Shown here one piece after another: positions 41,611 through 64,000 of a stretch of 64,000 nucleotides of DNA (position 1 is the first letter of the stretch; each line of letters begins with the position of its first letter). The position numbers and the translations under genes are program-made. Source of the DNA: Tubulanus polymorphus (Eukaryota; Nemertea; Palaeonemertea; Tubulaniformes; Tubulanidae); NCBI RefSeq assembly GCF_964204645.1, contig NC_134035.1, positions 1,938,001 to 2,002,000 of the forward strand, given 5' to 3'. The notes under the pieces were generated by a model. The model was given only the letters and a program-made list of their open reading frames with translations, did not search any database and was not told the DNA's origin.

Positions 41611-41619
41611 AATATCTTA

Positions 41620-42382: not shown

Positions 42383-42386
42383 TTAA

Positions 42387-42743
42387 ACTTTTGAACACAC
42401 CTCAATTTGGTCTCGATACGACCAGAGTGAAAATGTGCAGTCTGAATAAACAGTTGTATTTACATCCACTTTACACCATATTGAAGAATTGCCAAAAAGT
42501 CTTCATTTTCTCATGTTGCAATTACAAAAGATCAGCCATTTTTGAAATTCTAAGATGTTGGGCCAGATGTTAATGTGTTGTCTCTGAAATTGTTTCTATT
42601 AAAACCCAAGGGCTACCCTCCATAGCCCTGACTGATTACAGATCTGTCATCTGGCGGATTTGTTTACAATCGATATGCCAATTTTCAAATGATGATAAGT
42701 GTCGTCGCTTAAATGTTTATGATGTCTCTATTTTGTTTTCTAG
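42387..42743. other. Repeat fragment and intron upstream of the first micro-exon
   Basis: 42,390-42,560 resembles 63,475-63,600 (GTCTGAATAAAC...CCAAAAAGTCTTC), a dispersed repeat. The sequence then runs to the acceptor TTGTTTTCTAG at 42,743. Upstream non-coding exon(s) of the micro-exon gene must exist but are not identified. Confidence 0.4.
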
Positions 42744-42747
42744 AAAT

Positions 42748-42771
42748 ATGGCTCCAAAACGAAAGCAGATA
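42748..42771 (+). CDS. Micro-exon gene, first coding exon (MAPKRKQI)
   Basis: The exon proper begins at 42,744 after TTTTCTAG; ATG at 42,748 has A at -3 and G at +4. It encodes MAPKRKQI, then donor GTAAGT at 42,772. The basic KRK right after the start fits a nuclear protein. The start is inferred: the acceptor just upstream means the transcript has at least one earlier exon, presumably 5' UTR. Confidence 0.7.
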
Positions 42772-45716
42772 GTAAGTATTCATTTTTTTTTGTTCCAATA
42801 ATATGTCTGTATCTACATTGATACCTAGTATACTTACCTGAGTAGATGTGCACTACGTCATTGATATATCGGAGCTAGATTTAAATCCCCCGCCCCCACT
42901 CCCCCTGGTGTTGGCGTTCATACCAACCCATCAAAGATACCGTCCACTACACCTCACTAACCATCCAGGATACAGATGGAATAATGAATTAAATGTGGAA
43001 TTGAACCCGGGACCGGTTATCATTTGATGTTACAATCAATATTCAAAACTGAAACATTTTCTGGGGCCGGTTCCATAGTCAGGGCTTTAGACTTAAGATC
43101 AGTCTGAGACCAACTTGGTTCTATAGCCAATCTAACAACTTAAGACGAGTCTTAAGATTTAAGACCACTTTCGGACTTAAGTCTCGATTGACGTGCAACC
43201 GCCCCCAGATGCTTATTTTTCAAATAATTCTAATGAATGTGAATGTTATTGTTCTTTTTTAACAGCCAGAAGTCCTGGAGGAAATTCCGCCGCCAGTAAG
43301 TTTAGATTTTATGATATCATTTTATATAAACCTGTTTTGTTTAACCTGGTCCTCTGAAGCCGGTTAGACTGGTATTATGTTTAACCCGTGCTCAGTTAAC
43401 TGAATTCACTTTTAATCAAGTTAACCCAGATTTATTAAAGTAAACATTGGTCTCCATAAAACTGGCGCTTAGATTCATTGATCATTTAATGAATGATTTT
43501 TATAGATATGAATGTTAATTCTCTTTTCTAGATAACAGTAGAAGCGGAAATTCATTTTGTAAGTTTTCTATTAATCTCCTCGGTGGAATATGATATCTAC
43601 CATTTTCGCTGAGAGTCATTGAAACTTCATAACTCTTTAAGCAAGTTGTAACTGATTTCGTCTTCAGTTTGTGCGCGCGCTCACTTACACATACGCTTAT
43701 ATTTGCGCATGTAGTTCATAATTATCATCAAACTCGTAGTAATAACGATAATAGTAATGATAATAATTACAATTGTCATTTTTAAAGTGCAAATATCCCG
43801 ATAAAAGGAATTATCAAACTGATTTATCGCATGGTGTTTTTGGTTTTCTCTCATTGTAACAAGTTTACTCTGATGAAATCTTTTTCCAGATATTAAACCT
43901 GTCTGGTATTCGTTTTAATCATGATCTCTGTTAAATGTGTGCTACTCAATATGAAATAACAATGCAATTAATTACTATTCTTTCATCGCGACAGTTTGCT
44001 GCTGCTGCAGCAGCAGCAGCAACGACAACAGAAGTTTGAATTTTTCTGTTTAATGGACTCTATATCGTTTGAATCAAACTGTAAAACAAACAAATACAGA
44101 AATATCAAAGTTACAGAGATCAGAGTTTTAATGCAAGAAATTAATGAATTCTCTTTTCTTTTATTGCAACAGAACAGACAAACAGCGACGAATACAGTAA
44201 GTTTGAATTTTTCTGTTTAATGGACTTTATATTGTTTAAATAAAACCCTAAAACAAACGAATACAGAAATATCAGGGTTTTTCCAAATACAGATATAAAA
44301 CTTGTCTCTTGTTTTAATTATAATATGATCTCCTGTGTTTAATGTTTGCTACTGAATATGAAATAATGCAAGAAATTCATGAATTCTCTTCTTTTTTTTT
44401 ATTGCGACAGAATTCAGCGACGATGACGACAACAACAACAGCACCAGAAGTAAGTGAGAAGTTTTCTGTATCATGGAATATCTAGTCGTGTTTATTTCTT
44501 TCTTACAGACGATGATTTGTTTGTGATTTTCATCTTATATTTCATACCGGGAACAAAGTCATGAAAATAATCCTGCTTTCAATGAAATAAATTCCCGTCA
44601 CTTAGAATTATTTTATAATCAAGTTTTTTTTTATATAATATTAGCGCACACAGTCAAATCTGGAAACATTTGCTCACGGATATATGTGCATATATTTTAT
44701 GTATCTCTTTTATTGATGTATTAATGTTTACTGTATTTAACGTGTGAACGTGAAATAACAAAACTAAAATGAATTCTCTTTTTTTCTTTCATGTCATCAG
44801 CGTAAACAAACAGCAGCAAAGGCAGTAAGTATTAATTCTTCTGTTACCTTGAAACAACCGATTCTTATGAGTTTTTCGTCAGAATTATCATCAAAGTTAC
44901 AGAATTTAATCGGAGTTCGATTCCCTTCATAACTTATCGTTTTTGACCTGAATGTGAATGTTATTGTTCTTTTCTAACAGCCAGAAGTCCTGGAGGAAAT
45001 TCCGCCGCCAGTAAGTTTAGATTTTATGATATCATTTTATGTAAACCTGTTTTGTTTAACCTGGTCCTCTGAAGCCGGTTAGACTGGTATTATGTTTAAC
45101 CCGTGCTCAGTTAACTGAATTCACTTTTAATCAAGTTAACCCAGATTTATTAAAGTAAACATTGGTCTCCATAAAACTGGCGCTTAGATTCATTGATCAT
45201 TTAATGAATGATTTTTATAGATATGAATGTTAATTCTCTTTTCTAGATAACAGTAGAAGCGGAAATTCATTTTGTAAGTTTTCTATTAATCTCCTCGGTG
45301 GAATATGATATCTACCATTTTTGCTGAGTCATTGAAACTTCATAACTCTTTAAGCAAGTTGTAACTGATTTCGTCTTCAGTTTGTGCGCGCGCTCACTTA
45401 CACATACGCTTATATTTGCGCATGTAGTTCATAATTATCATCAAACTCGTAGTAATAACGATAATAGTAATGATAATAATTACAATTGTCATTTTTAAAG
45501 TGCAAATATCCCGATAAAAGGAATTATCAAACTGATTTATCGCGTGGTGTTTTTGGTTTTCTCTCATTGTAACAAGTTTACTCTGATGAAATCTTTTTCC
45601 AGATATTAAACCTGTCTGGTATTCGTTTTAATAATGATCTCTGTTAAATGTGTGCTACTCAATATGAAATAACGCAATTAATTACTATTCTTTCATCGCG
45701 ACAGTTTGCTGCTGCT

Positions 45717-45760
<44 letters not shown>

Positions 45761-46151
45761 GACAACAGAAGTTTGAATTTTTCTGTTTAATGGACTCTAT
45801 ATCGTTTGAATCAAACTGTAAAACAAACGAATACAGAAATATCAAAGTTACAGAGATCAGAGTTTTAATGCAAGAAATTAATGAATTCTCTTTTCTTTTA
45901 TTGCAACAGAACAGACAAACAGCGACGAATACAGTAAGTTTGAATTTTTCTGTTTAATGGACTTTATATTGTTTAAATAAAACCCTAAAACAAACGAATA
46001 CAGAAATTTCAGGGTTTTTCCAAATACAGATATAAAACTTGTCTCTTGTTTTAATTATAATATGATCTCCTGTGTTTAATGTTTGCTACTGAATATGAAA
46101 TAATGCAAGAAATTCATGAATTCTCTTCTTTTTTTATTGCGACAGAATTCA

Positions 46152-46183
<32 letters not shown>

Positions 46184-49100
46184 AAAAACGACAGCACCAG
46201 AAGTAAGTGAGAAGTTTTCTGTATCATGGAATTTCTAGTCGTGTTTATTTCTTTCTGACAGACGATGATTTGTTTGTGATTTTCATCGTATATTTCATAC
46301 CGGGAACAAAGTCATGAAAATAATCCTGCTTTTAATGAAATAAATGCCCGTCACTTAGAATTATTTTATAATCAAGTTTTTTTTATATAATATTAGCGCA
46401 CACAGTAAAATCTGGAAGCATTTGCTCACGGATATATGTGCATATATTTTATGTATCTCTTTTATTGATGTATTTATATTTACTGTATTTAATGTGTGAA
46501 CGTGAAATAACAAAACTAAAATGAATTCTCTTTTTTTCTTTCATGTCATCAGCGTAAACAAACAGCAGCAAAGGCAGTAAGTATTAATTCTTCTGTTACC
46601 TTGAAACAACCGATTCTTATGAGTTTTTCAACAGAATTATCATCAAAATTACAGAATTTAATCGGAGTTTGATTCCCTTCGTAACTTATCGTTTTTGACC
46701 TGAATGTGAATGTTATTGTTCTTTTCTAACAGCCAGAAGTCCTGGAGGAAATTCCGCCGCCAGTAAGTTTAGATTTTATGATATCATTTTATATAAACCT
46801 GTTTTGTTTAACCTGGTCCTCTGAAGCCGGTTAGACTGGTATTATGTTTAACCCGTGCTCAGTTAACTGAATTCACTTTTAATCAAGTTAACCCAGATTT
46901 ATTAAAGTAAACATTGGTCTCCATAAAACTGGCGCTTAGATTCATTGATCATTTAATGAATGATTTTTATAGATATGAATGTTAATTCTCTTTTCTAGAT
47001 AACAGTAGAAGCGGAAATTCATTTTGTAAGTTTTCTATTAATCTCCTCGGTGGAATATGATATCTACCATTTTTGCTGAGAGTCATTGAAACTTCATAAC
47101 TCTTTAAGCAAGTTGTAACTGATTTCGTCTTCAGTTTGTGCGCGCGCTCACTTACACATACACTTATATTTGCGCATGTAGTTCATAATTATCATCAAAC
47201 TCGTAGTAACAACGATAATAGTAATGATGATAATTACAATTGTCATTTTTAAAGTGCAAATATCCCGATGAAAGGAATTATCAAACTGATTTATCACGTG
47301 GTGTTTTTGGTTTTCTCTCATTGTAACAAGTTTACTCTGATGAAATCTTTTTCCAGATATTAAACCTGTCTGGTATTCGTTTTAATAATGATCTCTGTTA
47401 AATGTGTGCTACTCAATATGAAATAACAACGCAATTAATTACTATTCTTTCATCGCGACAGTTTGCTGCTGCTGCAGCAGCAGCAGCAGCAGCAACGACA
47501 ACAGAAGTTTGAATTTTTCTGTTTCATGGACTCTATATCGTTTGAATCAAACTGTAAAACAAACGAATACAGAAATATCAAAGTTACAGAGATCAGAGTT
47601 TTAATGCAAGAAATTAATGAATTCTCTTTTCTTTTATTGCAACAGAACAGACAAACAGCGACGAATACAGTAAGTTTGAATTTTTCTGTTTAATGGACTT
47701 TATATTGTTTAAATAAAACCCTAAAACAAACGAATACTGAAATATCGAGGTTTTTCCGAATACAGATATAAAACTTGTCTTTTGTTTTAATTATAATATG
47801 ATCTCCTGTGTTTATTAATGTTTGCTACTGAATATGGAATAATGCAAGAAATTAATGAATTCTCTTTTCTTTTATTGCAACAGAACAGACAAACAGCGAC
47901 GAATACAGTAAGTTTGAATTTTTCTGTTTAATGGACTTTATATTGTTTAAATAAAACCCTAAAACAAACGAATACAGAAATTTCAGGGTTTTTCCAAATA
48001 CAGATATAAAACTTGTCTCTTGTTTTAATTATAATATGATCTCCTGTGTTTATTAATGTTTGCTACTGAATATGGAATAATGCAAGAAATTCATGAATTC
48101 TCTCTTTTTTTTATTGCGACAGAATTCGACGACGACAAGAACAACAGCACCAGAAGTAAGTGAGAAGTTTTCTGTATCATGGAATTTCTGTGGTGTTTAT
48201 TTCTTTCTGACAGACGATGATTTGTTTCTGATTTTCATCGTATATTTCATACCAGGAACAAAGTCATGAAAATAATCCTGCTTTCAATGAAATAAATTCC
48301 CGTCACTTAGAATTATTTTATATATCAAGTTTCTTTTATATAACATTAGCACACACAGTAAAATCTGGAAGCATTTGCTCACGGATATATGTGCATATAT
48401 TTTATGTATCTCTTATTGATGTATTTATATTTACTGTATTTAACGTGTGAACGTGAAATAACAAAACTAAAAGGAATTCTCTTTTTTTCTTTCATGTCAT
48501 CAGCGTAAACAAACAGCAGCAAAGGCAGTAAGTATTAATTCTTCTGTTACCTTGAAACTACCGATTCTTATGAGTTTTTCGTCAGAATTATCATCAAAGT
48601 TACAGAATTTAATCGGAGTTCGATTCCCTTTGTAACTTATCGTTTTTGACCTGAAAAAAGGCGGCTCTAAATCCAATTCGGTTACAGATATCAAACCTGT
48701 CTATTTTTGGTTTATTTGTATTGGTCATCAAATTCAATTCTTGGCGCACATTTTTATGCCCATAAACTGGTGCTGATTTTCATAAGCGCAACGATTGAAT
48801 AGATTCCGACTCGTTTTTTTCTTTCGCCTGGTAGATTTTCTGCAAAACAAGATGATGTTTTCCATGGTCGATTTACCAATTCCTAGGCTTTGTATTAATG
48901 AATTTTATTCTTTTACAGCATCACACTGGAACGAGGTCCACGTTGGCGTCCCCAGACATCGAAGTAAGTTTAGATGTATCCGTTCTGTTGGCTGGTTATC
49001 AATTGTAATATGTTGAGACTTGAGATGAAAATGATTTGTATTGTGTTAGTACATGAGGTTAAAGCCTGTTTTTTGTTATGCCGTGTGCGGGGAAGGCAAA

Positions 49101-52100
49101 ACACAAAACGCCGAACATGTCGTGTCCGTTGAACATTTTATTGTTTGTGGGCAAAACGTGTTCTGAAAAGTGTGTTTTCTGTTTTGGCGAAACAAATGTT
49201 ATGCCGGTGCGGCGGGCTTAAGGCGAGTGAATAATTAGGGTATATGAGAAAAAAAGCGGGAATATAAATGAAGAACATTCGTAACTCTTTGCCTGCCACG
49301 CCTATTTTTCAGGCAATGCTGCGTTTTGCCAGGATTTCCGTGTTTTTCAGAGATTCATAAAACAAAAACAAGAAGAGATATCTTCTCGTCAAATTTGTTT
49401 TATATCTTTGATCTGGTCTTGCATTTTCATGTAAAATAAGCGGCATTTCTTCTAAGAGTGATAAAATCTGTAGCGATAACCAGTGCAGAGGGAGTATTTT
49501 GCAGAATATATGCTCGTTCATGCGTGTTCAGCCCCCATTTCAATAGATGATGTCACTCGCACACTGTATAGAACAACTGATGAGTTTGTTTAGTAGTAAA
49601 AGGCATTAAACTAACTGGTGTTGTGCGATGAATTCGCCATCTATCGTTAGAGTTAAGAACCAAGCCAACCGTATCGGTACGGTTTTGAGTTAAGAATCAA
49701 GCCAACCGTATCGGTACGGTTTTGAGTTAAGAATCAAGCAAACCGTATCGGTACGGTTTTGAGTTAAGAAACAAGCCAACCGTATCGGTACGGTTTTGAG
49801 TTAAGAAACAAGCCAACCATTTTGCCAGTACGGTTTTGGCAGGAATGTGATGGGAGATAACTAACATACGAGTACGTGTTTGGGTGGAAATGAGTTAAGG
49901 AGCCACGTCGGATCAACCCACCTCCCAGTATATATCATCCAAGGGCATAACTCTTTCAGCACTCACGGGTGATTTGATAAAAAAAAACACTCAGAGTGCC
50001 CATCATTGGTAACATAAAAGTAGGAAAATCGATAGAAACTTTCGAGCTCCATAGAGTGAAAACTGTAAGAGATGAGCTTAATGTTAATTGAAAGGTTTCT
50101 AGGGTATGACTGACCCTTAGAAAAGATTGGTAACAATTTTTTGAAAAATGATCTAATTTGCACGAATTATAGCTCTTTTTAAGAGCCTCAAAACGCTAAG
50201 CGTTGTTTAAGAGACCAGAGAAAAACATTCGACTAAGAAACTCTGTCGTCACAAGGGTTTGAACCTATAAACCTTGGATTGACGAGACCAGTGACCGGCG
50301 GCTTAGTCCACTTGGCCACTGCGCCTCTCCAATTAATTATAGCTCAGCGACCAGTTTATTTGCTAACTCCTTAAATTTCAGGTATAGGATAAACAACCCA
50401 AGGGCTTAACGACAATTTATTGAAATGTCGTTTTTGAGATGCTCTCACGATTCAATCTTTTGATGCAATTTTTTGGTAATTCGACTGTATTATTTAACGG
50501 GAGGGAGTGTTAATAGCGAAGCAAATATCGCAACTTTTTTGATGCCGTAAAAACCGGAATTACAACGATGTTCATATACATTCATACCTAAGCGTTATTT
50601 AAAACAGGTTCTCATAGGCGTCCCCAGGAATTTTCATACGGGGTTCGAATAAGCATCAATCCAGCATCCAAGCACAATGTCTGGTGTTTGGGGGGCCTCC
50701 CCCAAAAAACTTTTTTTTAAATTTGAGGCTTTAGAGACGTTTTCCAGGCTCTAAATGAATCACTTAGAGTTAAAGGACTTAAGTCAAATTGGCAAGAAAA
50801 ATCTTGAACATTGATTACATGTTAACTTGAGAAGTTAGCTATCTTGAAAAGGGTCCGCTACCCCTGCACCCCTCGGGGACGCCTATGGTTTTGTGTGAGT
50901 CAATGTGCGCTACGTCATCAACATTGGAGCATTTCAAAATAACAATTACAATTGTGAATGTTCGCTTATCCATTTTGTAATATAACGCTTGCCAGTGGTC
51001 CGGTATCACTCCCGAACTCGCTTCCACCAGCCCCCTGGCCTCATGAAGCGTGATTTCATTACTGGCGCTGTTGCGCGTGACGTCATATATCGATTTGCGA
51101 AATACTTCCTTGTTCGGTAAAACGTTCGCTGATTGGTCTATTTAACGGGAAAACCAACATAAGTCTACTGACGGTTTGTTACAAGCGCTGTGATTGGTAC
51201 GACCGGATTCTGGTCGGCTAGTAACGACTCCAACGACTCGTGAGGTCAGGGGGTTCGGGGAACAGCTTTAGCGTAGTGGGTTCGAATCCCTTGACAGGTG
51301 AAGATTTCAATATTGAAGCATTTCAAAATAACAATTACAATTGTGAATGTTCGCTTATCCATTTTGTAATATACAGTGTTGCCACTTCTCCAGATTTCTC
51401 CGGAATTCCGGATTTAAAAAAAATCCAATTTCATTTCCGGATTTTCGGGAGAAGTCAAATAACCACAAAAGAAAACATCGCGAAAAAAATAAAATCAATT
51501 CGGGATTCGACCCTAAACATCAAAACGTGACGGCTCCGTAGAGGGTTCGAAAAAGCCGTATTGTGCTGCCACGTAGTGGCAACAACCCCGCGCGCAGTAC
51601 ACGATTAAACCAAGATGACGCGACGATCGAAATCGACTGACGCTTCGTTTGTTTTTTGGCTCTGGTTTATATATGAGGTGTATTTGCCGGAGCCAATTGC
51701 TATTTGAAAAAAAGATCTATAGGCGGTAATGAAAGTGAGGCCTATAACGCGTATTGCGCCAGAACGCATCTCCTGGCGTTCTAATTTAAAAAATTTTTTT
51801 GGGGGAGGGCCCCAGACCCCCGACTTATTTTCCGGATTTTTAGCTTCACATAAGTGGCAACTCTGAATATAACATATTTCATTCTGTATGTTTTCTGTTC
51901 GATAAATTTTATATATGTCTTATTGGCAATAGACATTTGTGTACCGGTATTACCTCGTTGATATATCGGGGCTAGAGACTAGAGATTTTGCCGGTCAGTT
52001 CAATTCAATCATCGATATATTCAAATTCAACATATATTTATTGATCCTGCTAGTAGTCACACTGATTGACTACCCCGACTCATCGGACGGAACAGGAACA

Positions 52101-55100
52101 CGGAGAACTTGAAGAATAAAGATGTAACTGACATACGACAACACTGCTTTCGTAACTTTCATTCCTATGAAAGGAAAATACAGAATTCGACCCCGATTAA
52201 TTCATATATCGTCAATCGTTGACAAGCAATTCATGTGTCATTCAAGGTGTCAATAAACACCTCTTTCAGTTTTCCTCTAATTGATATTTATGGAGATGTA
52301 AAATTTTTCATTTATATTTCAGGAAATCGAAACAGTTTTCGAATTAAAGTTGGGGACGTCGCTCAGGGCCTCGTTCCAGAAGACGCTGACGCGAAAACAT
52401 CCGGTAATGTGAAAAAGATTGATTTCAAAGGAAGTGCAGCTTACCCTAGGGGGAGCCACTTTGATTACATAAATTAAACAGTCAAAGGGTGAAAATGCTC
52501 TATACATTTTGTATTCAATTCATTACTTTCACGTTAAAATGACTTTGGATATAACGACTTATCTAGCTATTTGTTAGTTTTATTATAAACCTGAGAATTC
52601 CGTCCAAAATAAAACATTTTAATAATTTCATATCGATTATAAACGAACAGATTACTGAAATTCATTGTTGTATATAACGAGCTTTCAGTGAATGACGTTT
52701 ATTTCTCATCACTTTCAAACTGCTACTGATTTAAAATGCTCATACAGTCTCTTTTGTTCTCTATTTACAGCAAGTGATCGTAGATACGCCGAGAGTTCAT
52801 GCCATTGTGGTAGTTCGTGGGCCGAAAGTAGCAGTTGACAACTGCTACGAGTACGCCCACGAACTACGCGACCGGCTCGTCGCGCAGGAGGTAAGAATAA
52901 TAGTGTTAATAATATCCATACTTGATTATGACAACTATAATATGAGAGTATATTAATGTTTCTTCGGTTGTGGGGGCCATCTAATCTTACTCAGTGTGTG
53001 CAGTCCCAGCATCATCCAGCCTGCAATCCTCGGTGCGATATAGGGCACACGTTAACCCCTATTGAAGGATGTCATCGGCGGCCATCTTGAATTTATTTTT
53101 AGCGCGACAAAGCCTGGACGAACTTTGGTTATCGCAGTTAGTCGACTATTTGTGAACTAAGTGCAACAGAATGTCAGTTATGACTATAGTCAGAAATGAT
53201 CGACTGTGGTATTGAGCACGGTCGCTGTAGTTCGGACTTCATGATTCCAAGATGGCTGGAATATGTTTCGACTGAGCTATCGCGCGTTCAGTGATTTCCA
53301 ACCATTGGTCGACTAGCTACGAAAAACCAAAGTTTGCCCTGTATTTCTCGATGGATTCCCGTGAAACTTCGCTTTAAGACGGCTAAGCTTAATTCTTTCG
53401 AAGTCAATAACAAATTAAGTAAACTCTGTCGTTTTTTACGAAGACTGCAACATTCTTTACCTGTCTTCCAGTTGTTGCCACTTTGCTAAGTTTTAGTTTC
53501 TCCTCATTTTAACAGCTCAGCTGATACCAAACAATCACACAATAATTTCTAGTTTATCGTCGCCGAAATTTCTATTGTTGATTACTCTCATCACTCTTGA
53601 AAATAGAAAAAGAATTTAATTGAATCGTTTTTATTTAATAGACTCTGAAAGAGAAGAGAAAAATGGAAGTAAGTAAATTCTTTCGAATAATTACAGGCGG
53701 ATTTAGGTCACACAGTTACTGAGTCTGTAATAACAAAACTAAATAAATTAATTCTCTTTTCTTTCCAGAGGGAAAGGAAAAAAAAAGCATTAGAAGTAAG
53801 TTTGAATTTGTCTGTTTAATGGACTTTATATCTTTTAAACCGTAAAGCAAACGAATACAGAAATATCAATTTCAAAGTTACATAAATATCAGAGTTTTTC
53901 CAAACATAGATAAAAAACTTGTTTTTTGTTTCTTTTGTTTTAATCAAGATATGATCTATGTTTAATGTTTGCAACTGAATACGAAATAACGCAAGAAATT
54001 CATGAATTCTCTTTTCTTTTATAGCAGACGAAAGCAGCAGCAGCAGCAGCAGCAAAAACAGCAGCAGCATTTGTAAGTTTGAAGTTTTCTGTATCATGGA
54101 CTTTTTTGTCCGTCTGTTCATCTCTCCATCTGTTCACTTGCGACATTTTCTATGATAGTGACGAGTTTCAAGGTCAACGGTTTTTGTATATTTTCACCAG
54201 GGGGCGTTGAATATCAAATAAGTCTGATTATCAAGCGTCCAAATCATTTTTCGCGTGGGATTGGCGACTGGACCACAAGTTCATTGATAATATTAACCAA
54301 CAGATATATGTAAACCAATGATCATCAAATAATATAACAATCGATTCTTAAAGAGCTTTTCATCAGAATTTTGTCAAAAGTTACAGAATTTAATCTGAGT
54401 TCGATTCCCTTCAAAATGATTTACCATGTGGCATGTTTGATTTTAACTTAATGTAAGAAATTTATGCTAATGACATCAAAATCATTTTTCAGATACAGAC
54501 ATCTATATAAACCTGTCCAGTTTTTATGTCTACTGTGTTTATTAACGTTTGCTGCTGAATATGAAATTTAAAACAAAACTGAATTTTCTTTCTTTTATTG
54601 CAGCAGAAACCAAAAACAACAGCTGCAGTAGCAGCGGCCGTTCCTGCACGAGTAAGTTTCTATTTTATAATTACGATTTTATGATTACGTTCATTTCTCT
54701 AACCGAGACCGAAACTTCTCGCACCTTACACTTTACATCCCTATTTCGTTATCTGGTATAAGCATTTCATAAGGCTGTGGTAAACCTCTTGGCCTATGGG
54801 CAATTATTTTTTGCGATTTTCATCGATTTCCAGACACAGATATTAAACCTGCCCAGTTTTTGTGTCTACTGTGTTTATTAACGTTTGCTGCTGAATATGA
54901 AATATAAAAAAAAAACTTACTGAATTTTCTTTCTTTTATTGCAGACGAAACCAACAGCGGCAGCAACAGCGGCAGCGGCCATTCCTGCACGAGTAAGTTT
55001 CAATTTTATAATTAAGTGTCATTCGTTTCCCGTGTATTCCCTCGTAGATGATCCTGTCTTAACATCAACTTTAATCCATTAGCACTCAGGAATTGCACTT

Positions 55101-58100
55101 AACTTAATGTAATATATTTATGCTAATGACATCAAAATCATTTTTCAGATACAGATATCTATATAAACCTGTCCAGTTTTTATGTCTACTGTGTTTATTA
55201 ACGTTTGCTGCTGAATATGAAATATAAAACAAAACTGAATTTTCTTTCTTTTATTGCAGCAGAAACCAACAACAACAGCGGCCATTCCTGCACGAGTAAG
55301 TTTCTATTTTATAATTACGATTTTATGATTACGTTCATTTCTCTAACCGAGACCGAAACTTCTCGCACCTTACACTTTACATCCCTATTTCGTTATCTGA
55401 TATAAGCATTTCATAAGGCTGTGGTAAACCTCTTGGCCTATGGGCAATTATTTTTTGTGATTTTCATCGATTTCCAGACAGATATTAAACCTGCCCAGTT
55501 TTTGTGTCTACTGTGTTTATTAACGTTTGCTGCTGAATATGAAATATAAAAACAAAAACTTACTGAATTTTCTTTCTTTTATTGCAGACGAAACCAACAG
55601 CGGCAGCGGCCATTCCTGCACGAGTAAGTTTCAATTTTATAATTAAGCGTCATTCGTTTCCCGTGTATTCCCTCGTAGATGATCCTGTCTTAACATCAAC
55701 TTTAATCCATTAGCACTCAGGAATTGCACTTAATTTAATGTAAGATATTTATGCTAATGACATCAAAATCATTTTTCAGATACAGATATCTATATAAACC
55801 TGTCCAGTTTTTATGTCTACTGTGTTTATTAACGTTTGCTGCTGTATATGAAATATAAAAAAAAAAACTTACTGAATTTTCTTTCTTTTATTGCAACAGA
55901 AACCAACAGCAGCAGCACCGAAGGAAGTAAGTCAGCATTTTTCTGTTGTATCATGGATTTTCTGTCGTGTTCATTTCTATCTGACAGCCAATGTATTTCA
56001 TACCGGGAACAAAGTCATAAAAATTCTCCTGTTCGTTTTATTAAATAACGATACAGAATCAAAACAATATCTATAACGAGGCATCCGTCGCTTAGAACTC
56101 ATTTATTACGTATATTGATACCTACGTGTGCTACTGAACATAAAATAACAAAACTAAAATAATTCTCTTTTTTTCTTTCATGGCATCAGTGCAAACAAAC
56201 AACAATAACAACAACGAAAGAAGTAAGTTTTGGCCATGTTTTTAGTTTTCGCTCATCACTGACATTACTGATATCTTTCCTCGCAGTCTTAAATCGGCTC
56301 CACTCAATTTCTCTCATGAAATGCTTTCCATGATCGAACTACACGTGATCATGAACTTGAAAATGAAAAATGATTAAATCTAAATGTTGCTCGTTTATTT
56401 TATAGGTCACCAGAAAGCGACGCCGATCCGTCGACGAGGTCAGTTTGAATTCTATCGAATCGTTCTCCCGTTATTACTTTCAATCTGTCTTTTCGTCCAT
56501 AGATAGGATCTCACAATCGCCAGTGGTATAGGCATTGTTCAGCAATTCAAGGGTGCTAATGTCCTAGAAAACCTGGCAATCTCATTGAATCAGAAAGATT
56601 GGGGAATTTGATAGATTTTTACCAAAATCCTGGTCCGTCGGTCGGTCCGTCGGTCGGTCCGTCGGTCGGTGATGTTCACGTCTCTGCACCCACAGCTTAT
56701 GGTTATTCATGAAGACTTGACCATTATTTCCTGTTTTAAGTCGTGTAGATTATTATCATTGTGGTTCAATATAGATTACGACTATCTGAAAGTTGAGATT
56801 TACTAAAGAAATGTGTATCAAAATTCTGAATGTTGATTTCAACTTTTTTTAAAATATTTTACAGCAACCCGTAAGCCCGCCTAAATGTCGGCGAGAGGAG
56901 GTAAGTTTCAATTTCATTAAATCATTTTCGATATCGATGTTAAATATTGATAACCTTAGCCCTGTTTCATAGACTGTATATCAATAATACCCTAGAGGTA
57001 TTTCTTCAACCTGAGCCCGATTTTGTAAACCGGATATCAATGTTACCCAGAGTTGCCAACCGTTCCTGATTTTCGGTATTTGTTACTCTTTTATGACAAG
57101 AAATACTGATTTGATTTGTTCGATGCATATGAGAAGTATGAAAGATCTAACTGAGGGTCTTACTGTTGATTACTGATTGATTTGAACATTTATTTTCATA
57201 TTACAATTTGTTACTGATAGCACTTTTCAGAGGTTGGCAGCCCTGTTGGTTGCCGATAGGTAAATCTTCAACATAGGTGACAACTTCATAATGAAAACCT
57301 TGGTAATGACTGAAAAATTTCGAAATGATCCCAGCTGGTATTATTTTTTCCCAACATCTATGAAACTTGGCTCTGGTGAACGCCTAGCCTCACTGGCAAG
57401 CAATTGTGATACTATCGTGACCATATGTCACTTGTGATCAGTAAGTGTCATTTACCAAAAACATACGTACATTTTATCGTAATAAATTTTTTGTATTCTT
57501 TTTTATAGGACATCAATTTATTCGACGACCTTTGGGTAAATATCCTTTTGATCGCCTACTCGTTCTCAGTGAATTTGGAGCCATCCCTTTCATTAGTGGG
57601 TGGCTCCATATATACTCGCTTTTAGGGTTAGCTAGAATTTTTCATGATATTTCATGTTATTTTGATTACTAGAATGATGATTTCCCAGAGCCGCCGCCGC
57701 CGGAGCCCGAGGCTCCTACCATTATCGTAAGTTGTAAAAGATAATTATTTTCGTAGTTCACCAGATTATTATAATCTGATATTGATTTTCCTGCTGAAAT
57801 ATCCATGTTCTAAGAGATCCCATAGCATATCTCCACCAAGGTCAAACTTGGCTAAAGCTACGACCAATTTTGCTCGTAGGCTAAAGGCACCTAGTTTTTG
57901 CTAGCTTATTTGTTGTTGGAAAACATAAACACTGGTAATTGTGACCGATCTGTTTGCAGCGCTGCAGCCGCTATACGGTATCATGGGTTCAATTCTAAAA
58001 TGTCATTACTTAGGGGCAGTTCCGTGGGGGGCTGGTGAATTTGGCTATATTCCTTAAAGATATTTTTTGCCTGACCGCTGCAGCTGCCGCAGTTTAGGGG

Positions 58101-61100
58101 TCCTAACCAATAAAAATTTTGAAATATGTTCTAATTTCCTTGTATCTGGGACATTCTGTTGGATCGAGTTACTTTAAAAAAAAAATGTTATTCTGACTAT
58201 ATTCCGGAATACAATGGAATCTAGTTTGGATCGGCTACTGATTAAGCTATATAGAGTAGTATCTTCGGTCCTAAATTAATCACAGCTGAAGCCAGTTATA
58301 TCTAAAGAGTGTTTGAAAGTAGTCGCACTCGGTCACAGTTTGTATCGATGCGAATATTCATCTTACCGAGTTCATATTATTCGTAAAATTGGCATTGATA
58401 ATAGCGTGAAGCAATGTTTTTAAGTGAAACTAAGAATGTTTAAAAGTTGCGGCTCGGTCACAGTTTTGTATCGATGTGAATATTCTTCAGACTGAGTTAG
58501 TAGAATATTGAAATCATGTCACGCAGCATCCATCGGTTCAATTATCCTCAAAATAGTCTCTAAATTGAGGGTCAACTAAGAATTTCGATCATGGAATCTT
58601 TCATCCGTGGTATAGTTATTCAAAACTTGATTTCAGAATTTTTTTTCTTTACATTTCTAGGAATCGGAAATCGCGCGTATTGTGCAAATTGACGTAAGTT
58701 TACAATAGACAATTTCAGTTACACATGTTGACACCCAGTGACTTTATAAATACCACCTGCCTGCCATCTACTGACAAAAACTTGAACTTTATTCCATAAT
58801 GTACACTATACCGTTGTGGTTCTCATAAATCCGATCATTAGTAACAACCTATAACGTAATAATAACTATTTTTGATGGTTCACCAGATGAGGCTTTTTCT
58901 TAAATAGCTTGGTTTACGGGAACCGCCTCCCGAAATTTGAAGAAAAGTCAAACAAAAGTAGAATTTTTTTTTTACTCCCATCTGTGGAACAAATTCAGTG
59001 GAAAACGAGCAAAAAAGTTTTTCACCTTCGCCGAATGAGAATCCCGGCTTGAATGATGAAAAAATTGAAAAACGCACGTTTATTCTTTTTTTGATCACAT
59101 TTGTGTGCAGAATTCGAACTTTCCAAGGATCATTGTTTTGGACATATGTATATTGCCCTATCGATCGTTCCCTCTTCCTTCAAAAACTGTGTTTATCGCG
59201 CTGAGCGAGTTCTTTTTTTTTAAATTTTCCGAAATGATATTTCAATAGTCTACCCTGTCAACCAAGCTATTAAAAAAATGCGAGATTTGAGATAATTTAT
59301 TCTGATTTTCATAAATGCTAAATTGAGCTCTTGTTTTTCTTTTTATGTAGAGAAATGAATTCCACACGTGCGTGAATGTGCCGGTAAATATTGTGAACAT
59401 TTCTATTGAATTTACAGTTGAACACAAACGACTGCAGATGAAATATGTCTGAATTTTTGTTGACGTCGTTAAACTAAAGTTGATTTTTTATTTTATAGAA
59501 GAGGAAGCTCGAGGTACCGGCATCGGTGAGTTTGAATTTCATCAAATCATTTTACAGTCCGTTCGTCTGTGTGCCTGTCTCTCCGTCTGTCCGCCTGTCT
59601 CTCCGTCTGTGTGCCTGTCTCTCCGTCTGTCCGCCTGTCTCTCCGTCTGTCCGCCTGCCGACGGGATCTTGTGAAAGTTTAAGCTTACGACAAGTATGAT
59701 TTGTGATTGCGACGAGAGTTTGTCGATGCGAAAAAAAGGCACAAGATTTTCGCGATGGTAGTACGTGCCTCTTGTGATTGTGGAGAGCTTGTTGAAGCCC
59801 TTTTTGCAAGTGGTGTTGTCGTTTTTGCACCCGCAGTTCATGGTTATTCATTTCCATTTTTTAGTTGTGTAGATTATCATTTTCGTGGCTCACCAAAGAT
59901 TATTAAGATAATCTGAAATTGAGATTTCCTTCAGAAATATGTTTGAAAATTCTGGATGTTGATTTCAACTTGTTTTTATTTTATAGGACCCCGTTAGCCC
60001 TAAACGGGCACGCGTCGGACCGGTTAAAGTAAGTTTGATTTGAGTCAAATCATTTTAAGTGAAGCTAATTTCAAATAAGTTTATTGATAATCTGGGCAGG
60101 GTTTTATAGACCATAGATCATTATCTCCTAGGGGTAAATCCTCAACCATGGCCCGATTTCATAGACCGGGTTTCAATATTGCCCCTAGCGGTAAATCCTC
60201 AACATAGGTGACAACCACCATTGTAACAATGATAAACTATGGTAAAAACTGACAAATTTTTAAATGTTTCCAGTTGTCCGAGCGTTCAAACCACTTTTCA
60301 AGTGATTTTCGCGTCTCTGCACCCACAGTTCATGGTTATTCATGAAGACTTGACCATTATTTCCTGTTTTAAGTCATGTAGATTATTATCATTGTGGTTC
60401 ACCAATGATTATGAGGATATTTTATTGTTTTCAAAATCTGCATCGGAAAAAGAATTAAAATAGTGTAGAATTCTTCTGCTTTGGATCTCGTGGCACCAAA
60501 AAATCGAAACCAAAAAAATAAAAATACCTAATTCTGGGGCGGCGGGACAGGGAGAGATCTAGAAATTGATGACAATCGGCTTGATGACCATCGCACGGAA
60601 CTAACTTAATATCATTGGCTGGAAAACTAGGATCCAGCATCGGTATCTCTTTACTAGATCATAACTTCAAACTGTGGAACTGGGTCCAGAACTGCGGAGC
60701 CAGGTTCTGTAACTGTGGGACTGGGTCCAGAACTGCGGAGCCAGGTTCTGTAACTGTGGGACTGGGTCCTGAACTGTGGAACCAAGTTTTATTATATTAA
60801 ATTGAAATGAATCATTTTCATGTTTTTATAACCAATGGAAATATCGTTTTTTTACTTTTTAGACTGAAACACCTGCGACGCCGCCGCCGCCGCCGCAAGC
60901 TGATGTAAGTTTGAACTATAAGTGAAAATAATTATAATGCATCAAATACACTGAATGTGTTGATCATTACTGACACGTCAATGAACAGGAAGACATACAG
61001 AATCCCTGAATCTCTCTGGTCCTACTGAGCTATTCACATGTAGAATCCCTGAATCTCTGGTCCTACCGAGCTATTCACATATAGAATCCCTGAATCTCTG

Positions 61101-62564
61101 GTCCTACCGAGCTATTCACATATAGAATCCCTGAATCTCTCTGGTCCTACCGAGCTATTCTGATACCGAATTCTCCAATCAGTAAGAAATCATTTAATGT
61201 TTCGATGATTTAATCAATGTTGATTGTTTTGTTTTTTCCAGAGAGACGAGATACCGCCGCTGAGGCGATCGCCGCGGCTGAGACGCCGAAGAGTAAGTTA
61301 TTAGAGCCCTTGCGCTGTCATATATTCAGGTGAAAACTACTCAAATTAGAGATATCAAATAGTCCGGTATTTTTAACCGTAATGATATGATCCAGTGCTC
61401 ACTATTAATACAATAAGAGATGCGCGAAAAAATATCGATGCTCTAATTTGACGACGACTTGTCGCACTTCTTGTTCACTTTCTGTCCCATTAGATTGTCT
61501 CACATACCTAAGCGGTGCCATCTGAAGGGATAGCTGGCGTGCCAGTTCCCTACTGTTCAAATTTCATTAAAGCGATGATGAAAGGATTATCCAATGGACC
61601 GGAACTGCTATACATAAACGCCGAATGTACTATAAAGAGAAATCAAGAAAAACTTTGAAATTGTGATTTCTTGGTTTGTTTGGAAACTTTGCGCTGCATT
61701 AGTTGAGCTCTTGAAATGCTCTTGTTTGCAGGCTCTCTTTCAGCTTTTGATTTCATATAGGGAATTGGCCCCATTATCTCTCTAATTACGATTCGTGTTA
61801 TCGAAACGCTAGTAAAAACTGCGTGAATTTTGACAAATTTTGTTGTTGTTTTCTTAAACCTTAACATCATGATTGTTATTATATTATAGGCAGAAAATGC
61901 AGCTGCCGCCCCCGCCGCCCCCGTCGATGCGACGGAAAATGGTAAGTCTACACATATTCATGATCCTATTTAGATATGTCCGTTTGTAGCCAGACATTTT
62001 TAGCAGAGCTGCCCAAACTGTTACTGATTTTCGGTATTTGTTACTATTTTATGACAAGAAATACTGAATTTGTCTCTGATTTGAACAGAAATATGAAAGA
62101 TGTTACTGAGCGCCTTACTGTTGATAACTGATGATTAATTTAGTTAACTGTAACTCACAACTGTGGAACTGGGTCCTGGATCCCGAGTTCAGAGTTAACT
62201 TTAACTCGTAACTGTAGAACTGGATCCTGAGTTCAGAGTTAAATCTAACTCATGTGTGGAACTGGATCCTGAGTTCAGAGTTAACTCTCGCAAATGTAGA
62301 ACTAGATTCTGAGTTCAGAGTTAACTCATTTGTGGAACTGGATCCAGCACGTTAAAATTCCCATAATCATGTCACTCCTGATGGAGTATGGCGGCAGTAT
62401 AACGGACTTTGACTGTATTGTCCACGTCGTAAAACTCCTATTGATCGTCCATGATTTAATGAAATACTAATAATTTTTCTCATTTATTTATTTTACAGTC
62501 ATCGAAGAGATAAGGCGGAATATCGCCGCGGATCCGCGGTACTTACTTAATTTTTTGACGCGAT
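42748..62564 (+). CDS. Micro-exon gene: at least 44 tiny in-frame exons, nuclear-type low-complexity protein (3' partial)
   Basis: I can chain 44 exons with GT-AG borders into one open frame of about 568 codons across 19.8 kb; exon borders are in the entries below. All exons but the last two are multiples of three in phase 0, so any of them can be skipped or repeated without frameshift. Typical size is 24-54 nt. The start is ATG 42,748 (context AAATATGG). The product has basic clusters like nuclear localisation signals (MAPKRKQ, TRKRRRS, KRKLE, SPKRARV, RRSPRLRRRR), Ala/Thr/Pro/Gln-rich linkers, an acidic/Pro patch, and one globular-looking module (52,323-52,890). Introns share long homologous stretches, so the gene grew by serial tandem duplication. 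It resembles schistosome micro-exon genes in layout but has no signal peptide. No family is recognised. It continues past the window. Confidence 0.8.
43266..44824 (+). CDS. Micro-exon cassette 1 (six exons)
   Basis: Exons: 43,266-43,295 PEVLEEIPPP; 43,532-43,558 ITVEAEIHF; 43,995-44,033 FAAA(A)5TTTE; 44,173-44,196 NRQTATNT; 44,411-44,449 NSATMTTTTTAPE; 44,801-44,824 RKQTAAKA. Five have GTAAG donors. The Ala exon's donor reads GTTTGA in all three cassettes, as if four bases of the usual GTAAGTTTGA were lost; read through, it meets TGA at once, so it may be a poison or dead exon. PEVLEEIPPP recalls PEVK-type elastic motifs, but the context does not support a titin-like protein. Confidence 0.75.
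44981..46576 (+). CDS. Micro-exon cassette 2 (six exons, expanded Ala and Thr runs)
   Basis: Exons: 44,981-45,010 PEVLEEIPPP; 45,247-45,273 ITVEAEIHF; 45,705-45,770 Ala exon with 14 GCA codons; 45,910-45,933 NRQTATNT; 46,146-46,202 NSA then a Thr run of ACG codons, ending APE; 46,553-46,576 RKQTAAKA. Introns and exons are almost identical to cassette 1; the main differences are triplet-repeat lengths and small indels. Offset to cassette 1 is 1,715 bases. Confidence 0.75.
46733..48527 (+). CDS. Micro-exon cassette 3 (seven exons, one internal duplication)
   Basis: Exons: 46,733-46,762 PEVLEEIPPP; 46,999-47,025 ITVEAEIHF; 47,462-47,506 Ala exon with 7 GCA codons; 47,646-47,669 and 47,884-47,907, two identical NRQTATNT exons 238 bases apart (a further local duplication with its intron); 48,123-48,155 NSTTTRTTAPE; 48,504-48,527 RKQTAAKA. 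Offset to cassette 2 is 1,752 bases. Confidence 0.75.
48919..48963 (+). CDS. Micro-exon HHTGTRSTLASPDIE
   Basis: 45 nt between TTTTACAG and GTAAGTTT, phase 0 at both ends. Single-copy in the window. It is followed by the longest intron (48,964-52,322), which is filled with transposable elements and a CCAAT-box pair. Confidence 0.7.
49650..49845 (+). repeat. 37-bp minisatellite with dyad-symmetric core
   Basis: Five copies of GAGTTAAGAATCAAGCCAAC followed by CGTATCGGTACGGTTTT, period exactly 37, nearly uniform except in the last copy. Each contains ACCGTATCGGTACGGT, an almost perfect 16-base palindrome. Confidence 0.9.
50240..50335 (-). mobile_element. tRNA-derived SINE head
   Basis: On the minus strand: GGCGCAGTGGCCAAGTGGAC (A-box region of Leu/Ser type), TAAGCCGCCGGTCACTGGTC, then the B box GGTTCAAACCC. 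Acceptor stems do not pair convincingly, so it is a SINE or tRNA relic rather than a working tRNA gene. Confidence 0.65.
50613..50887. mobile_element. MITE with CATAGGCGTCCCC ends
   Basis: CATAGGCGTCCCC at 50,613-50,625 and its exact inverted complement GGGGACGCCTATG at 50,875-50,887. The interior has TTTGGGGGGCCTCCCCCAAA and no coding region. It is related to the truncated copy at 8,793. Confidence 0.75.
51374..51865. mobile_element. hAT-like element with proven 6-bp target duplication
   Basis: Left end CAGTGTTGCCACTT and right end AAGTGGCAACTCTG are inverted complements with one mismatch. AATATA stands directly on both sides (51,368-51,373 and 51,866-51,871). The uninterrupted copy of the host repeat at 50,931-50,987 reads GTAATATAAC, exactly the empty site. 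The interior is non-coding (TCCGGATTT motifs, a GGGGGAGGGCCCC stretch). Confidence 0.8.
52323..52890 (+). CDS. Two larger exons encoding a globular-looking module
   Basis: Exon 52,323-52,403 (27 codons, EIETVFELKLGTSLR...LTRKHP, donor GTAATG) and exon 52,771-52,890 (40 codons, QVIVDTPRVHAIVVVRGPKV, then AVDNCYEYAHEL...VAQE, donor GTAAGA). Together they read as alternating amphipathic helix and beta strands, ending in a beta-strand/GP turn/helix that could be a KH-like alpha/beta fold. That is inference from pattern only. They are the only exons with ordinary protein composition and the likeliest handle for homology detection. Donor of the first is weak. Confidence 0.65.
53116..53339. mobile_element. 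MITE, GGGCGAACTTTGG family, copy 2
   Basis: GGACGAACTTTGGTTATCGC at the left and, inverted, GAAAAACCAAAGTTTGCCC at the right, lying in an intron of the micro-exon gene. Related to 11,941-12,106, with a longer interior. Confidence 0.55.
53642..53795 (+). CDS. Two Lys/Arg/Glu-rich micro-exons
   Basis: 53,642-53,668 TLKEKRKME and 53,769-53,795 RERKKKALE, each 27 nt with GTAAGT donors, separated by a 100-base intron. They continue the helix-like charged stretch after the globular module, possibly a short coiled coil or basic linker. Confidence 0.7.
54028..55926 (+). CDS. Ala/Thr/Pro-rich micro-exon series with NAGNAG acceptors
   Basis: Exons: 54,028-54,072 TKAAAAAAAKTAAAF; 54,607-54,651 KPKTTAAVAAAVPAR; 54,945-54,992 TKPTAAATAAAAIPAR; 55,263-55,295 KPTTTAAIPAR; 55,588-55,623 TKPTAAAAIPAR; 55,900-55,926 KPTAAAPKE. 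The pair around 54,607/54,945 is duplicated as 55,263/55,588 with introns (period about 650). Three exons (54,028, 54,607, 55,263) have tandem acceptors (TAGCAG or CAGCAG) that would add or omit one Gln. The common ending IPAR/VPAR shows descent from one exon. Confidence 0.75.
56190..56900 (+). CDS. Micro-exons CKQTTITTTKE, VTRKRRRSVDE, QPVSPPKCRREE
   Basis: 56,190-56,222, 56,406-56,438 (donor GTCAGT) and 56,865-56,900. RKRRR is a strong nuclear-localisation-type cluster. QPVSPPKCRREE is paralogous to DPVSPKRARVGPVK at 59,987: the exons, the upstream introns (TTCTGAATGTTGATTTCAAC) and the downstream introns (AACATAGGTGACAAC) all align, so a segment of several hundred bases was duplicated. A GGTCCGTC microsatellite lies in the intron at 56,625-56,670. 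Confidence 0.75.
57048..57245. mobile_element. hAT-like MITE, CAGAGTTGCCAACC ends
   Basis: CAGAGTTGCCAACC at the left and GGTTGGCAGCCCTG at the right, inverted with few mismatches, in an intron. A partial relative lies at 62,004-62,140 (CAGAGCTGCCCAAACTG, TGATTTTCGGTATTTGTTAC). No clear target duplication is seen. Confidence 0.6.
57509..57726 (+). CDS. Acidic and proline-rich micro-exons
   Basis: 57,509-57,535 DINLFDDLW (donor GTAAAT) and 57,673-57,726 NDDFPEPPPPEPEAPTII, separated by a 137-base intron. The acidic-aromatic DINLFDDLW followed by NDDF resembles short transactivation or adaptor-binding peptides. That is only a composition-based suggestion. Confidence 0.7.
58661..59383 (+). CDS. 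Micro-exons ESEIARIVQID and RNEFHTCVNVP
   Basis: 58,661-58,693 (GTAAGT donor) and 59,351-59,383 (GTAAAT donor), each 33 nt, phase 0. Composition is ordinary rather than repetitive. The preceding intron 57,727-58,660 and the one between show nothing recognisable. Confidence 0.65.
59499..60028 (+). CDS. Micro-exons KRKLEVPAS and DPVSPKRARVGPVK
   Basis: 59,499-59,525 (donor GTGAGT) and 59,987-60,028 (donor GTAAGT). Both hold basic clusters; PKRARV is close to the classical SV40-type nuclear signal pattern. The intron between contains a TCTCCGTCTGTCCGCCTG minisatellite (59,560-59,665). Confidence 0.75.
60650..60790 (+). repeat. GAACTGGGTCCAG minisatellite in intron
   Basis: Two and a half copies of a 54-base unit with AACTGTGGGACTGGGTCCAG and AACTGCGGAGCCAGGTTCTG. 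Related to 62,155-62,350 and 40,270-40,325. Confidence 0.75.
60863..61292 (+). CDS. Micro-exons TETPATPPPPPQAD and RDEIPPLRRSPRLRRRR
   Basis: 60,863-60,904 and 61,242-61,292, both with GTAAGT donors and phase 0. The first is a Pro run encoded by five CCG codons; the second is Arg-rich and DNA-binding-like. Their intron contains a 41-43-bp minisatellite (60,999-61,160, four copies of AGAATCCCTGAATCTCTGGT followed by CCTACCGAGCTATTCACATAT). Confidence 0.75.
61890..62564 (+). CDS. Last two visible exons, with a phase change
   Basis: 61,890-61,941 AENAAAAPAAPVDATEN plus one base (52 nt), donor GTAAGT, then 62,499-62,564, which completes Val and reads IEEIRRNIAADPRYLLNFLTR plus one base, donor GTAAGT. 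These are the only exons that break the phase-0 rule. The IEEIRRNIAADPRYLLNF stretch looks helical. If the last donor is not used, the frame stops about 20 codons on. The strong donor suggests the gene continues beyond 64,000. Confidence 0.65.
62155..62350 (+). repeat. ~58-bp minisatellite in intron
   Basis: Four to five degenerate copies of GGAACTGGATCCTGAGTTCA followed by GAGTTAACTCTAACTC. The same vocabulary occurs at 40,195-40,325 and 60,650-60,790. Confidence 0.75.
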
Positions 62565-64000
62565 GTAAGTACAACTTTTTGCATTTATACTCTCTCTTTC
62601 CACTGATCACATCATTTTTCACATAATTCACACATAATTCCTGATTATTCCTGAAGATGACTATTAGGATATAGTCGAAACGTTGAAATAAACTACTATC
62701 TCGAAGTTTCATTTTCGGACTTTTTATTATCATTGTGGGATTCTCTCCTCATCGCGTCAACACGGATAAAGTGTTCTACCAATCGTGAACTTTCGCGTAT
62801 TGATAAAGCGATGAGTCGGCTACAGTTCAATCGGGAAGTGTCGACGAAATTGAAGCACGGTTATTGAGGAGTAACCACTAGCTGATCCTCGCTTGCCACA
62901 GTAACGCAGCCACTGCCTCATCAAGCCCCGGGTCTTATTGACGGTACATCCTAGAAATAATTGAAATCGAAAAACGAGATCATTGTTCCCCTTACAGAAT
63001 TCTGTATAACAAAAGCCTATTTATTTTCGTGCGGCGTCAACCATTTTCAGACACATCGTGAAATATCAGTAACTAATGATACACCGCGCCGTGGTGTAGA
63101 CGCACTGTAGTGCTATTCCCGTTATTCAACACACTTGGGTGGAATTTTTCAAAATTTTCAAATTATCTCCAGCACTATAGGGTATTGATCAGTCAGCACT
63201 GAAAGGGTTAATAAGATAAAAAACCAACTTTATTTACAAATTAAAAGAATTCTAAAATCGAGAATTTATTTATGGAAACAATCTAAAACATAAGAACACG
63301 ACGTTTCGATCTCACCCTAGAGATCATCGTCAGGTGTGAGATATTGACTAAAAACGGATTAATTATATATATAATTAGTAAGTAATTAGTGTTTGGCAAG
63401 GCATGAAGTAATATACTCCATATACCATATGTCGCTCATTGTTTTAAACACATACCGCATCAAATTTGGTTTAAATACGACCAGTGAAACCGCGCGGTCT
63501 GAATAAACCATCGTTTTTGCATCCATTTTACGCTGTTAATTGAAGCATTGCCAAAAAAGTCTTCTTGAACTGATTTGAATCAGAGAAAATAGACTGCATT
63601 TTATGAACTAGATCAATTTTAACAAGTTTCCATGCCTACCATTTAGAATTATTTTCAAATCATCATGAATCATGGTTTGCGGTTATGGCAGGGGTTCACC
63701 TGATGGTTAAGTGATGGTTCGCTGATGGTATAACACCTATTTATTTGTTCATGTGACTGAACAATACAATGATACAATGTTTAGTTACTTCTGTGCTGTA
63801 CTGTAGTAACCCTGTCCCGACAACCCCTAAACTCTCAACCAGCCCATCAATGTCACTCATCGAGACTGATATTGTATTCTTTCCGCATCCCACATTCTGC
63901 TGCATGATGATGTCACAAATTATTGGCAACCAATCACGCTTCAAGTGGAAAGTCAACCATTTTGTATTAATGAGATTACTAGCTACACTGGGTTCACTGT
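62565..64000. other. Right flank: inverted hairpin pair and repeat fragments
   Basis: CTGAAGATGACTATTAGGAT ... AGTCGAAACGTTG at 62,652-62,690 and a similar element inverted at 63,305-63,343 (listed as a finding). 63,045-63,207 is a partial inverted copy of the piggyBac-like MITE, bounded by TTAA at 63,208. 63,475-63,640 repeats 42,390-42,560. The last 350 bases show nothing recognisable; the 71-codon minus-strand frame there is unsupported. Confidence 0.5.

Follow-up and report, generated by a model that had tools for sequence, protein, structure and literature searches.

A micro-exon gene family in the nemertean Tubulanus polymorphus with a nuclear-looking product and predicted hairpins in its message

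A 64,000-nucleotide stretch of the Tubulanus polymorphus genome (contig NC_134035.1, here C11, positions 1938001-2002000; hereafter the window) holds 44 exons of a gene built largely of tiny, frame-neutral exons. Sequence comparison within the genome (267.8 Mb in 77 contigs, numbered with the prefix C) establishes it as a predicted coding micro-exon gene within a multi-copy family. We propose, with about an even chance of being right, that the family encodes a disordered, fast-changing nuclear protein, and that hairpins in its messenger RNA (mRNA) act in cis on that same message.

The full gene model has 46 exons, with a median length of 33 nt over all 46, and 805 codons. Exons 1-42 (42748-61292, + strand) form a single open frame in phase 0, every length being a multiple of 3; exons 2-42 are bordered by AG and GT, and exon 1 is taken from its ATG at 42748. 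Exons 43 and 44 then move the frame to phase 1. Overall, 43 of the 46 listed exon lengths are divisible by 3, the listed last exon including 2 nt of the stop codon. A weak donor, GTTTGA, is found at the poly-Ala exons 4, 10 and 16, and several acceptors, that of exon 26 among them, are accompanied by an alternative AG at a distance of 3 nt. The window contains 44 of the exons, amounting to 1714 nt and ~571 codons. A sequence-only reading of the window had proposed at least 44 exons and ~568 codons; this describes the part inside the window well, but the gene continues for two more exons, 45-46, which together with the stop are found 0.3-1.3 kb beyond the window end (in locus L025). A six-frame search with the exon 45 and 46 peptides recovers the same downstream places. 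The features, in window numbering, are as follows.

42748-42771, + strand: exon 1, MAPKRKQI; the ATG lies 4 nt after a 3' splice-site-like sequence, and a 5' exon or trans-splice leader was not located
43266-43295, 43532-43558, 43995-44033, 44173-44196, 44411-44449, 44801-44824, + strand: exons 2-7, repeat block 1
44981-45010, 45247-45273, 45705-45770, 45910-45933, 46146-46202, 46553-46576, + strand: exons 8-13, repeat block 2
46733-46762, 46999-47025, 47462-47506, 47646-47669, 47884-47907, 48123-48155, 48504-48527, + strand: exons 14-20, repeat block 3
48919-48963, + strand: exon 21, HHTGTRSTLASPDIE
52323-52403, + strand: exon 22
52771-52890, + strand: exon 23, containing hairpin H1
52810-52867, + strand: hairpin H1, inside exon 23
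53642-53668, 53769-53795, + strand: exons 24-25, TLKEKRKME and RERKKKALE
54025-54072, 54604-54651, 54945-54992, 55260-55295, 55588-55623, 55900-55926, + strand: exons 26-31, Ala/Thr/Lys/Pro repeats
56190-56222, 56406-56438, 56865-56900, 57509-57535, 57673-57726, + strand: exons 32-36
58661-58693, 59351-59383, 59499-59525, 59987-60028, 60863-60904, 61242-61292, + strand: exons 37-42
61890-61941, + strand: exon 43, phase 0 to 1
62499-62564, + strand: exon 44, phase 1 to 1
64306-64541, + strand: exon 45, beyond the window, in L025
64874-65338, + strand: exon 46, with the stop at 65339-65341; beyond the window, in L025

To set this chain against chance, we scanned the + strand of 42741-62570 for candidate exons bounded by a strong acceptor and a strong donor. 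Their lengths leave remainders of 0, 1 and 2 on division by 3 in the proportion 35:2:3. Donors with an open in-frame exon number 31 on the + strand and 1 on the opposite strand. For window positions 1-42740 the count is 0 on one strand and 2 on the other, and 200 order-2 Markov simulations averaged 0.3, with no more than 2 in any of them. The hexamer GTAAGT occurs 36 times on the + strand and 8 times on the - strand of the same gene region. The exon chain is thus far above chance, and the observation of a micro-exon gene is confirmed. The layout and the run of 42 frame-neutral phase-0 exons described in the sequence-only reading are borne out by the borders, the open frame and this test; that reading had overlooked the terminal exons 45-46, the multi-copy family, the intragenic block duplication and the RNA hairpins.

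Near-identical copies of the gene provide evidence that its coding capacity is maintained. The module at 52323-52890 has 10 full-length genomic matches, the window included, at 96-100% identity. We examined four of the nine other copies (on C11 and C9), taking 40 kb around each; their homology to the window covers 26-31 kb, in blocks mostly at 92-99.9% identity, and runs well past the gene. For exons 1, 21-25 and 32-46, all 84 exon instances in the four copies keep AG and GT (or the ATG side or stop side), and each of the 10 length differences among these instances comes to 3 or 6 nt. In 4/4 copies, exon 46 runs open to the same stop. Only 1 of 696 splice-site letters is changed, against ~5.8 expected at the intron rate. 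Exonic changes, in counts of exon and intron variation that exclude exons 1-20 and 26-31, alter the protein in 12 of 27 cases, compared to the 70-75% expected (P 0.0008-0.005), and none creates a stop. This synonymous excess among near-identical copies points to protein-level constraint.

A tandem array on C8 (C8:13995582-13997164, L041:5583-7165) carries exons 22-23 fused without an intron, with a frame break in some units. It retains intron sequence upstream and supports solely the exon 22-23 junction. A search for spliced retrocopies of exons 32-45, in which 40 of 65 candidates were scored, gave 80 matches and no such retrocopy among them. Several window-type genes are followed downstream by truncated inverted copies of exon 45, lying tail to tail (C11:2010076-2010207 and others on C9 and C11).

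More distant relatives within the genome point to several branches. A search with exon 45 returned 79 places at E up to 10. Window-type places account for 25 of them (67-99% identity, many truncated and a few with stops), 36 are more divergent (46-57%, on C6, C3 and C8, E up to 2.0e-4), 10 are weak and lie on C12 (E 0.07-0.22), and 8 further ones are weak. The exon 46 tail gave 62 places, including 9 at 98-100% (on C11, C9 and C8, the window included) and 34 at 43-44% (18 on C6, 10 on C3 and 6 on C8). The family places listed lie at most ~3 Mb from a contig end, except on C12 (~3.3 Mb). From these sequence matches we recognize a multi-copy family, most of whose arrays lie close to contig ends, with at least two branches and probably a third.

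We call the window type branch A. Branch B was studied in one C6 and one C8 copy, with part of its exons identified. It has the start exon MPKANKKTRG and short phase-0 exon candidates. Its last exons are one of 76 nt that goes from phase 0 to 1 (modelled from the C6 copy alone), one of 66 nt that begins and ends in phase 1, one of 230 nt that returns from phase 1 to 0, and the stop exon, an order of terminal phases that it has in common with the window gene. Three exons differ between the two B copies by 44%, 44% and 21%, compared to 11%, 8.5% and 3.7% in the aligned flanks (P 7e-6, 2e-5 and 0.001), a contrast that is somewhat flattered, as it is limited to flanks alignable by BLAST and leaves other B exons out. 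Branch C, on C12, has a repeated start exon, MPKAKKKTKN, and the exon 45 motif RQPHPAASR. The start exons of branches B and C are, like exon 1 of the window gene, closely preceded by splice-site-like sequence.

The layout itself can be accounted for by exon duplication. A six-exon block, present three times at a spacing of ~1.7 kb, makes up exons 2-20; its copies are mostly 97-100% alike in ungapped repeat tables, with some stretches lower, and the third holds an additional NRQTATNT exon (47884-47907). By a loose pattern, there are four such exons in the window gene and three in each other copy. Exons 27-31 are single-exon duplicates. Judging from these repeats, most N-terminal exons derive from tandem block duplication within the gene. 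Being symmetric and in phase 0, the units can be gained by duplication or dropped without damage to the frame, and such free gain and loss explains the layout without any need for alternative splicing; the combinatorial set of proteins proposed in the sequence-only reading would come from exon skipping. In the exon 26-31 zone the number of in-frame exons varies among copies, and the variable-length repeat exons, sought with three patterns in 5 copies, are multiples of 3 in 39/39 cases; the PAR-type pattern overlooked exons in copies cC, cD and cE. In three copies, exons 28-30 seemed to break the frame where duplicated exons were aligned with the wrong partner; the exons are in fact in frame.

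The joined product (804/805 residues) has an isoelectric point (pI) of 8.7 and only 5 Cys. It contains nuclear-localization-signal-like (NLS-like) clusters (KRK, PKRAR, RRSPRLRRRR), an Ala/Lys/Pro/Thr block with a pI of 11.2, and acidic PE repeats. The clusters had been pointed out in the sequence-only reading and are found as described; the start has, by inspection, no secretory look, and the start exons of all three branches (MAPKRKQI, MPKANKK, MPKAKKK) are basic and hydrophilic, with no secretory signal by eye. Pfam searches with the joined protein, with 91 residues from its middle and with the terminal exons yielded nothing convincing (best E 0.93 and 0.043), and no histone match at E up to 1. 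The PDB offered weak matches only, among them two between the PE repeats and cyclin B1 (E 0.007 and 0.009) and another with E 0.12. Among 5.8 billion proteins, no relative reached E 0.001, either for region 220-805 of the joined protein, where the 8000 best candidates were scored, or for the last two exons, where 7994 were; exon 45 had no match in viral contigs. A conceivable likeness to cohesin Rad21/Rec8 was unsupported by Pfam. As no relative was found, function has to be judged from composition, from which we infer a disordered nuclear protein.

Strong hairpins are predicted in parts of exons 23, 45 and 46 and at the stop codon with the first bases of the 3' untranslated region. Relative to synonymous recodings drawn from the gene's own codons, folding z scores are -3.2 for exon 23 (H1), -5.8 (A) and -3.2 (B) for a hairpin termed alpha, and -6.3 (A) and -6.6 (B) for beta, which lies in exon 46. 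Relative to dinucleotide shuffles, they are -5.8 for 52800-52870 and -11.8 (A) and -9.7 (B) for gamma, which spans 102 nt with 36-nt arms and has the stop codon inside its 5' arm in both A and B. The long hairpins beta and gamma are thus predicted in both branches. As an independent test, we compared beta between one A and one B sequence, codon-aligned from a shared WEE; 49% of their letters agree. The centre of the inner beta helix (42.5) is identical in A and B, with 14 common pairs, 6 of them compensatory, the best figure for any of 130 possible centres (mean 1.0, standard deviation 1.1, runner-up 4). These counts establish conservation of the predicted beta hairpin between branches, with compensatory changes, and both gene structure and message shape look to be under selection.

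A scan of 73 kb found 13 hairpins of comparable score, four of them wholly or partly exonic, including two in simple repeats, and the other nine elsewhere; such hairpins are therefore not rare here. What is unusual is to find two non-simple ones within 300 bases of the last exon, one of them covarying in the other branch. Rfam gave no family at gathering score in the window, and only sub-gathering matches at six further loci. Long intron 21 contains tandem palindromes at 49667-49796 (AACCGTATCGGTACGGTT), and near-perfect palindromes occur outside the gene at 33362-33435 (score 31) and 35389-35436 (score 22).

The DNA upstream of the gene is rich in repeats. Between 7492 and 24870, units recur every ~3 kb, with three to five copies per repeat family and 22-23 bp tandem repeats within. 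The segment 26900-27600 has copies 87-100% alike at 0.1-5.5 Mb of C11, C9 and C12, with one each on C8 and C22 (40 of 73 candidates scored), and long stretches of C11, C9 and C12 seem, from such matches, to be built of amplicons. A dispersed element at 32944-33400 has ~89% copies on C1-C8, C10 and C11 (40 of 397 candidates scored). The open frame at 31602-32432, which has a GIY-YIG domain above cut-off, is presumably a Penelope-like element. On the - strand, a 287-codon frame (29996-30859) has by eye the look of a seven-helix receptor, with no convincing Pfam match and no database relative.

Several known systems share features with this gene. In collagen, elastin and titin PEVK, all structural proteins, runs of short symmetric exons were expanded by duplication; the duplicated short symmetric exons are alike, with no known relation to the window gene. 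Ala/Lys/Pro/Thr repeats resemble the tails of linker histones and sperm basic proteins; exons 26-32 have such repeats, with a pI of 11.2, and differ from those tails in having no histone Pfam match. In the Drosophila Dox-type system, driver and hairpin occupy separate loci; a protamine-like, basic product is a point of likeness to the window gene. Drosophila hairpin RNA (hpRNA) loci and Dox-type drivers reportedly link hairpin transcripts to amplified, conflict-prone genes (PMC10292708, PMC10317233), whereas here the hairpins lie within coding exons and no target was found with the one gamma arm searched. Micro-exon genes (MEGs) of Schistosoma have mostly tiny exons in multiples of three, long introns, several genes and fast protein evolution (PMC10526429, PMC4350168), and their 10-20 exons of 6-81 nt, mostly 15 nt, encode secreted proteins with a signal peptide (PMC10526429). 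The window gene is like them in its small symmetric exons, 42 in a row in phase 0, and in modularity, and unlike them in its nuclear-looking start, 46 exons, median of 33 nt and RNA hairpins. We thus call it MEG-like in modularity; membership among the MEGs is not shown. Nor is the layout limited to schistosomes, as the sequence-only reading supposed: aphid bicycle genes have many micro-exons of one phase (phase 2) and divergent paralogues, many of whose products have CYC motifs and a signal sequence, and megacycle, also an aphid gene, has >100 micro-exons (PMC9168663). Single-phase micro-exons, many paralogues and divergent sequences are common to bicycle genes and the window gene, which differs in its phase 0, its lack of a signal by inspection and its 5 Cys. 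Judged by titles and the beginnings of abstracts, the papers found deal with schistosome and rice micro-exon genes, among other subjects, and none with such a nuclear family.

These likenesses and the data above allow other explanations. A secreted effector family of the schistosome-MEG or bicycle type, with the same layout, would account for small symmetric exons, rapid exon divergence and many paralogues, as described for those genes (PMC10526429, PMC9168663); we hold it to be very unlikely, given the basic first exon without a secretory signal (by inspection), the NLS-like clusters and the low Cys content. It is rather unlikely, in our judgement, that the hairpins themselves are the product, as an hpRNA or microRNA-like precursor, with the coding frame incidental or secondary; Drosophila has hairpin-RNA loci of this sort, by which selfish genes are silenced. 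The 36-nt arms of gamma, the covariation of beta between branches and multi-copy amplification would fit such a precursor, yet the protein-level constraint and the conserved exon 45-46 peptide speak against it. Nor could an amplified relic, a once-real gene now riding as a passive passenger in a repeat-rich, duplicating chromosome arm, readily explain why four copies have no frameshift or stop, keep their splice sites and show a synonymous excess, or why a branch that is about half identical still shares the terminal phase pattern and a covarying hairpin. We consider such a relic unlikely, even with the highly repeated DNA nearby (26900-27600), the equal exon and intron variation of the near-identical copies, the truncated inverted copies downstream and the stops in some family places. 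Finally, the gene could be cargo of a giant TTAA-type DNA transposon, lying as it does between inverted repeats at 42091-42249 and 63053-63211 (arms of 159 nt, 89% complementary, both starting TTAACCCTTTCAGTGC). This is extremely unlikely: copy cB is homologous well past both arms (33279-42553 and 62703-64000), and the sequence differs just inside the left arm, which seems part of its own short element. The repeats look like parts of short TTAA-type elements and not like borders of the gene unit, and piggyBac-type cargo was rejected, as homology between copies does not stop at them.

Our own explanation, a nuclear protein with cis-acting hairpins on its message, has several results weighing against it. 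Among near-identical copies, variable sites are as frequent in exons (27/1528) as in introns (270/12554; P 0.40), so that constraint is visible only in the kind of change. The changes are clustered in few exons and may be gene conversion, hence not independent, and triplet repeats can slip by 3 unaided. Between the two B copies, the divergence of exon 45 (20%) and exon 46 (7%) is not significantly different from that of their flanks (12% and 10%). For the RNA, the outer beta stems have unlike centres (48.5 in A, 51.5 in B), the hairpin stretches were picked post hoc, covariation was computed for beta alone, and hairpins were computed for A and B. The one 21-nt gamma arm searched, at <=2 mismatches, matched family hairpins and, outside the family, a single site with two mismatches; no trans target is thus in sight, which also counts against an RNA product and gives silencing in trans no support. 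Near-terminal arrays are often searched for conflict genes, and a putative use in germline or genome conflict would be consistent with the arrays near contig ends.

Under the favored explanation, the protein would be a patchwork of NLS-like clusters, linker-histone-like Ala/Lys/Pro stretches and acidic PE repeats, its middle rapidly altered by exon turnover and, probably, exon choice. An arms race, for example germline chromosome conflict or immunity, may be the driver. The hairpins would act in cis on their own mRNA, through processing, stability, translation or Dicer/Drosha cleavage, and so might restrain the many near-identical copies. A tentative possibility, which we regard as doubtful, is a dual code, in which a fast-changing nuclear protein of interchangeable micro-exons goes together with conserved hairpins, located in the coding exons and over the stop codon, that feed silencing or decay of its own family; if true, a self-amplifying, possibly selfish family would carry its own brake.

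Compared by description, the family extends the micro-exon layout to a nuclear-looking product, unlike the secreted ones of schistosomes and aphids, and its block duplication of symmetric exons shows how micro-exon genes can grow. One of its coding exons also contains a predicted RNA hairpin that covaries between branches. If confirmed, this would be one gene in which selection acts on amino acids, exon modularity and RNA shape together.

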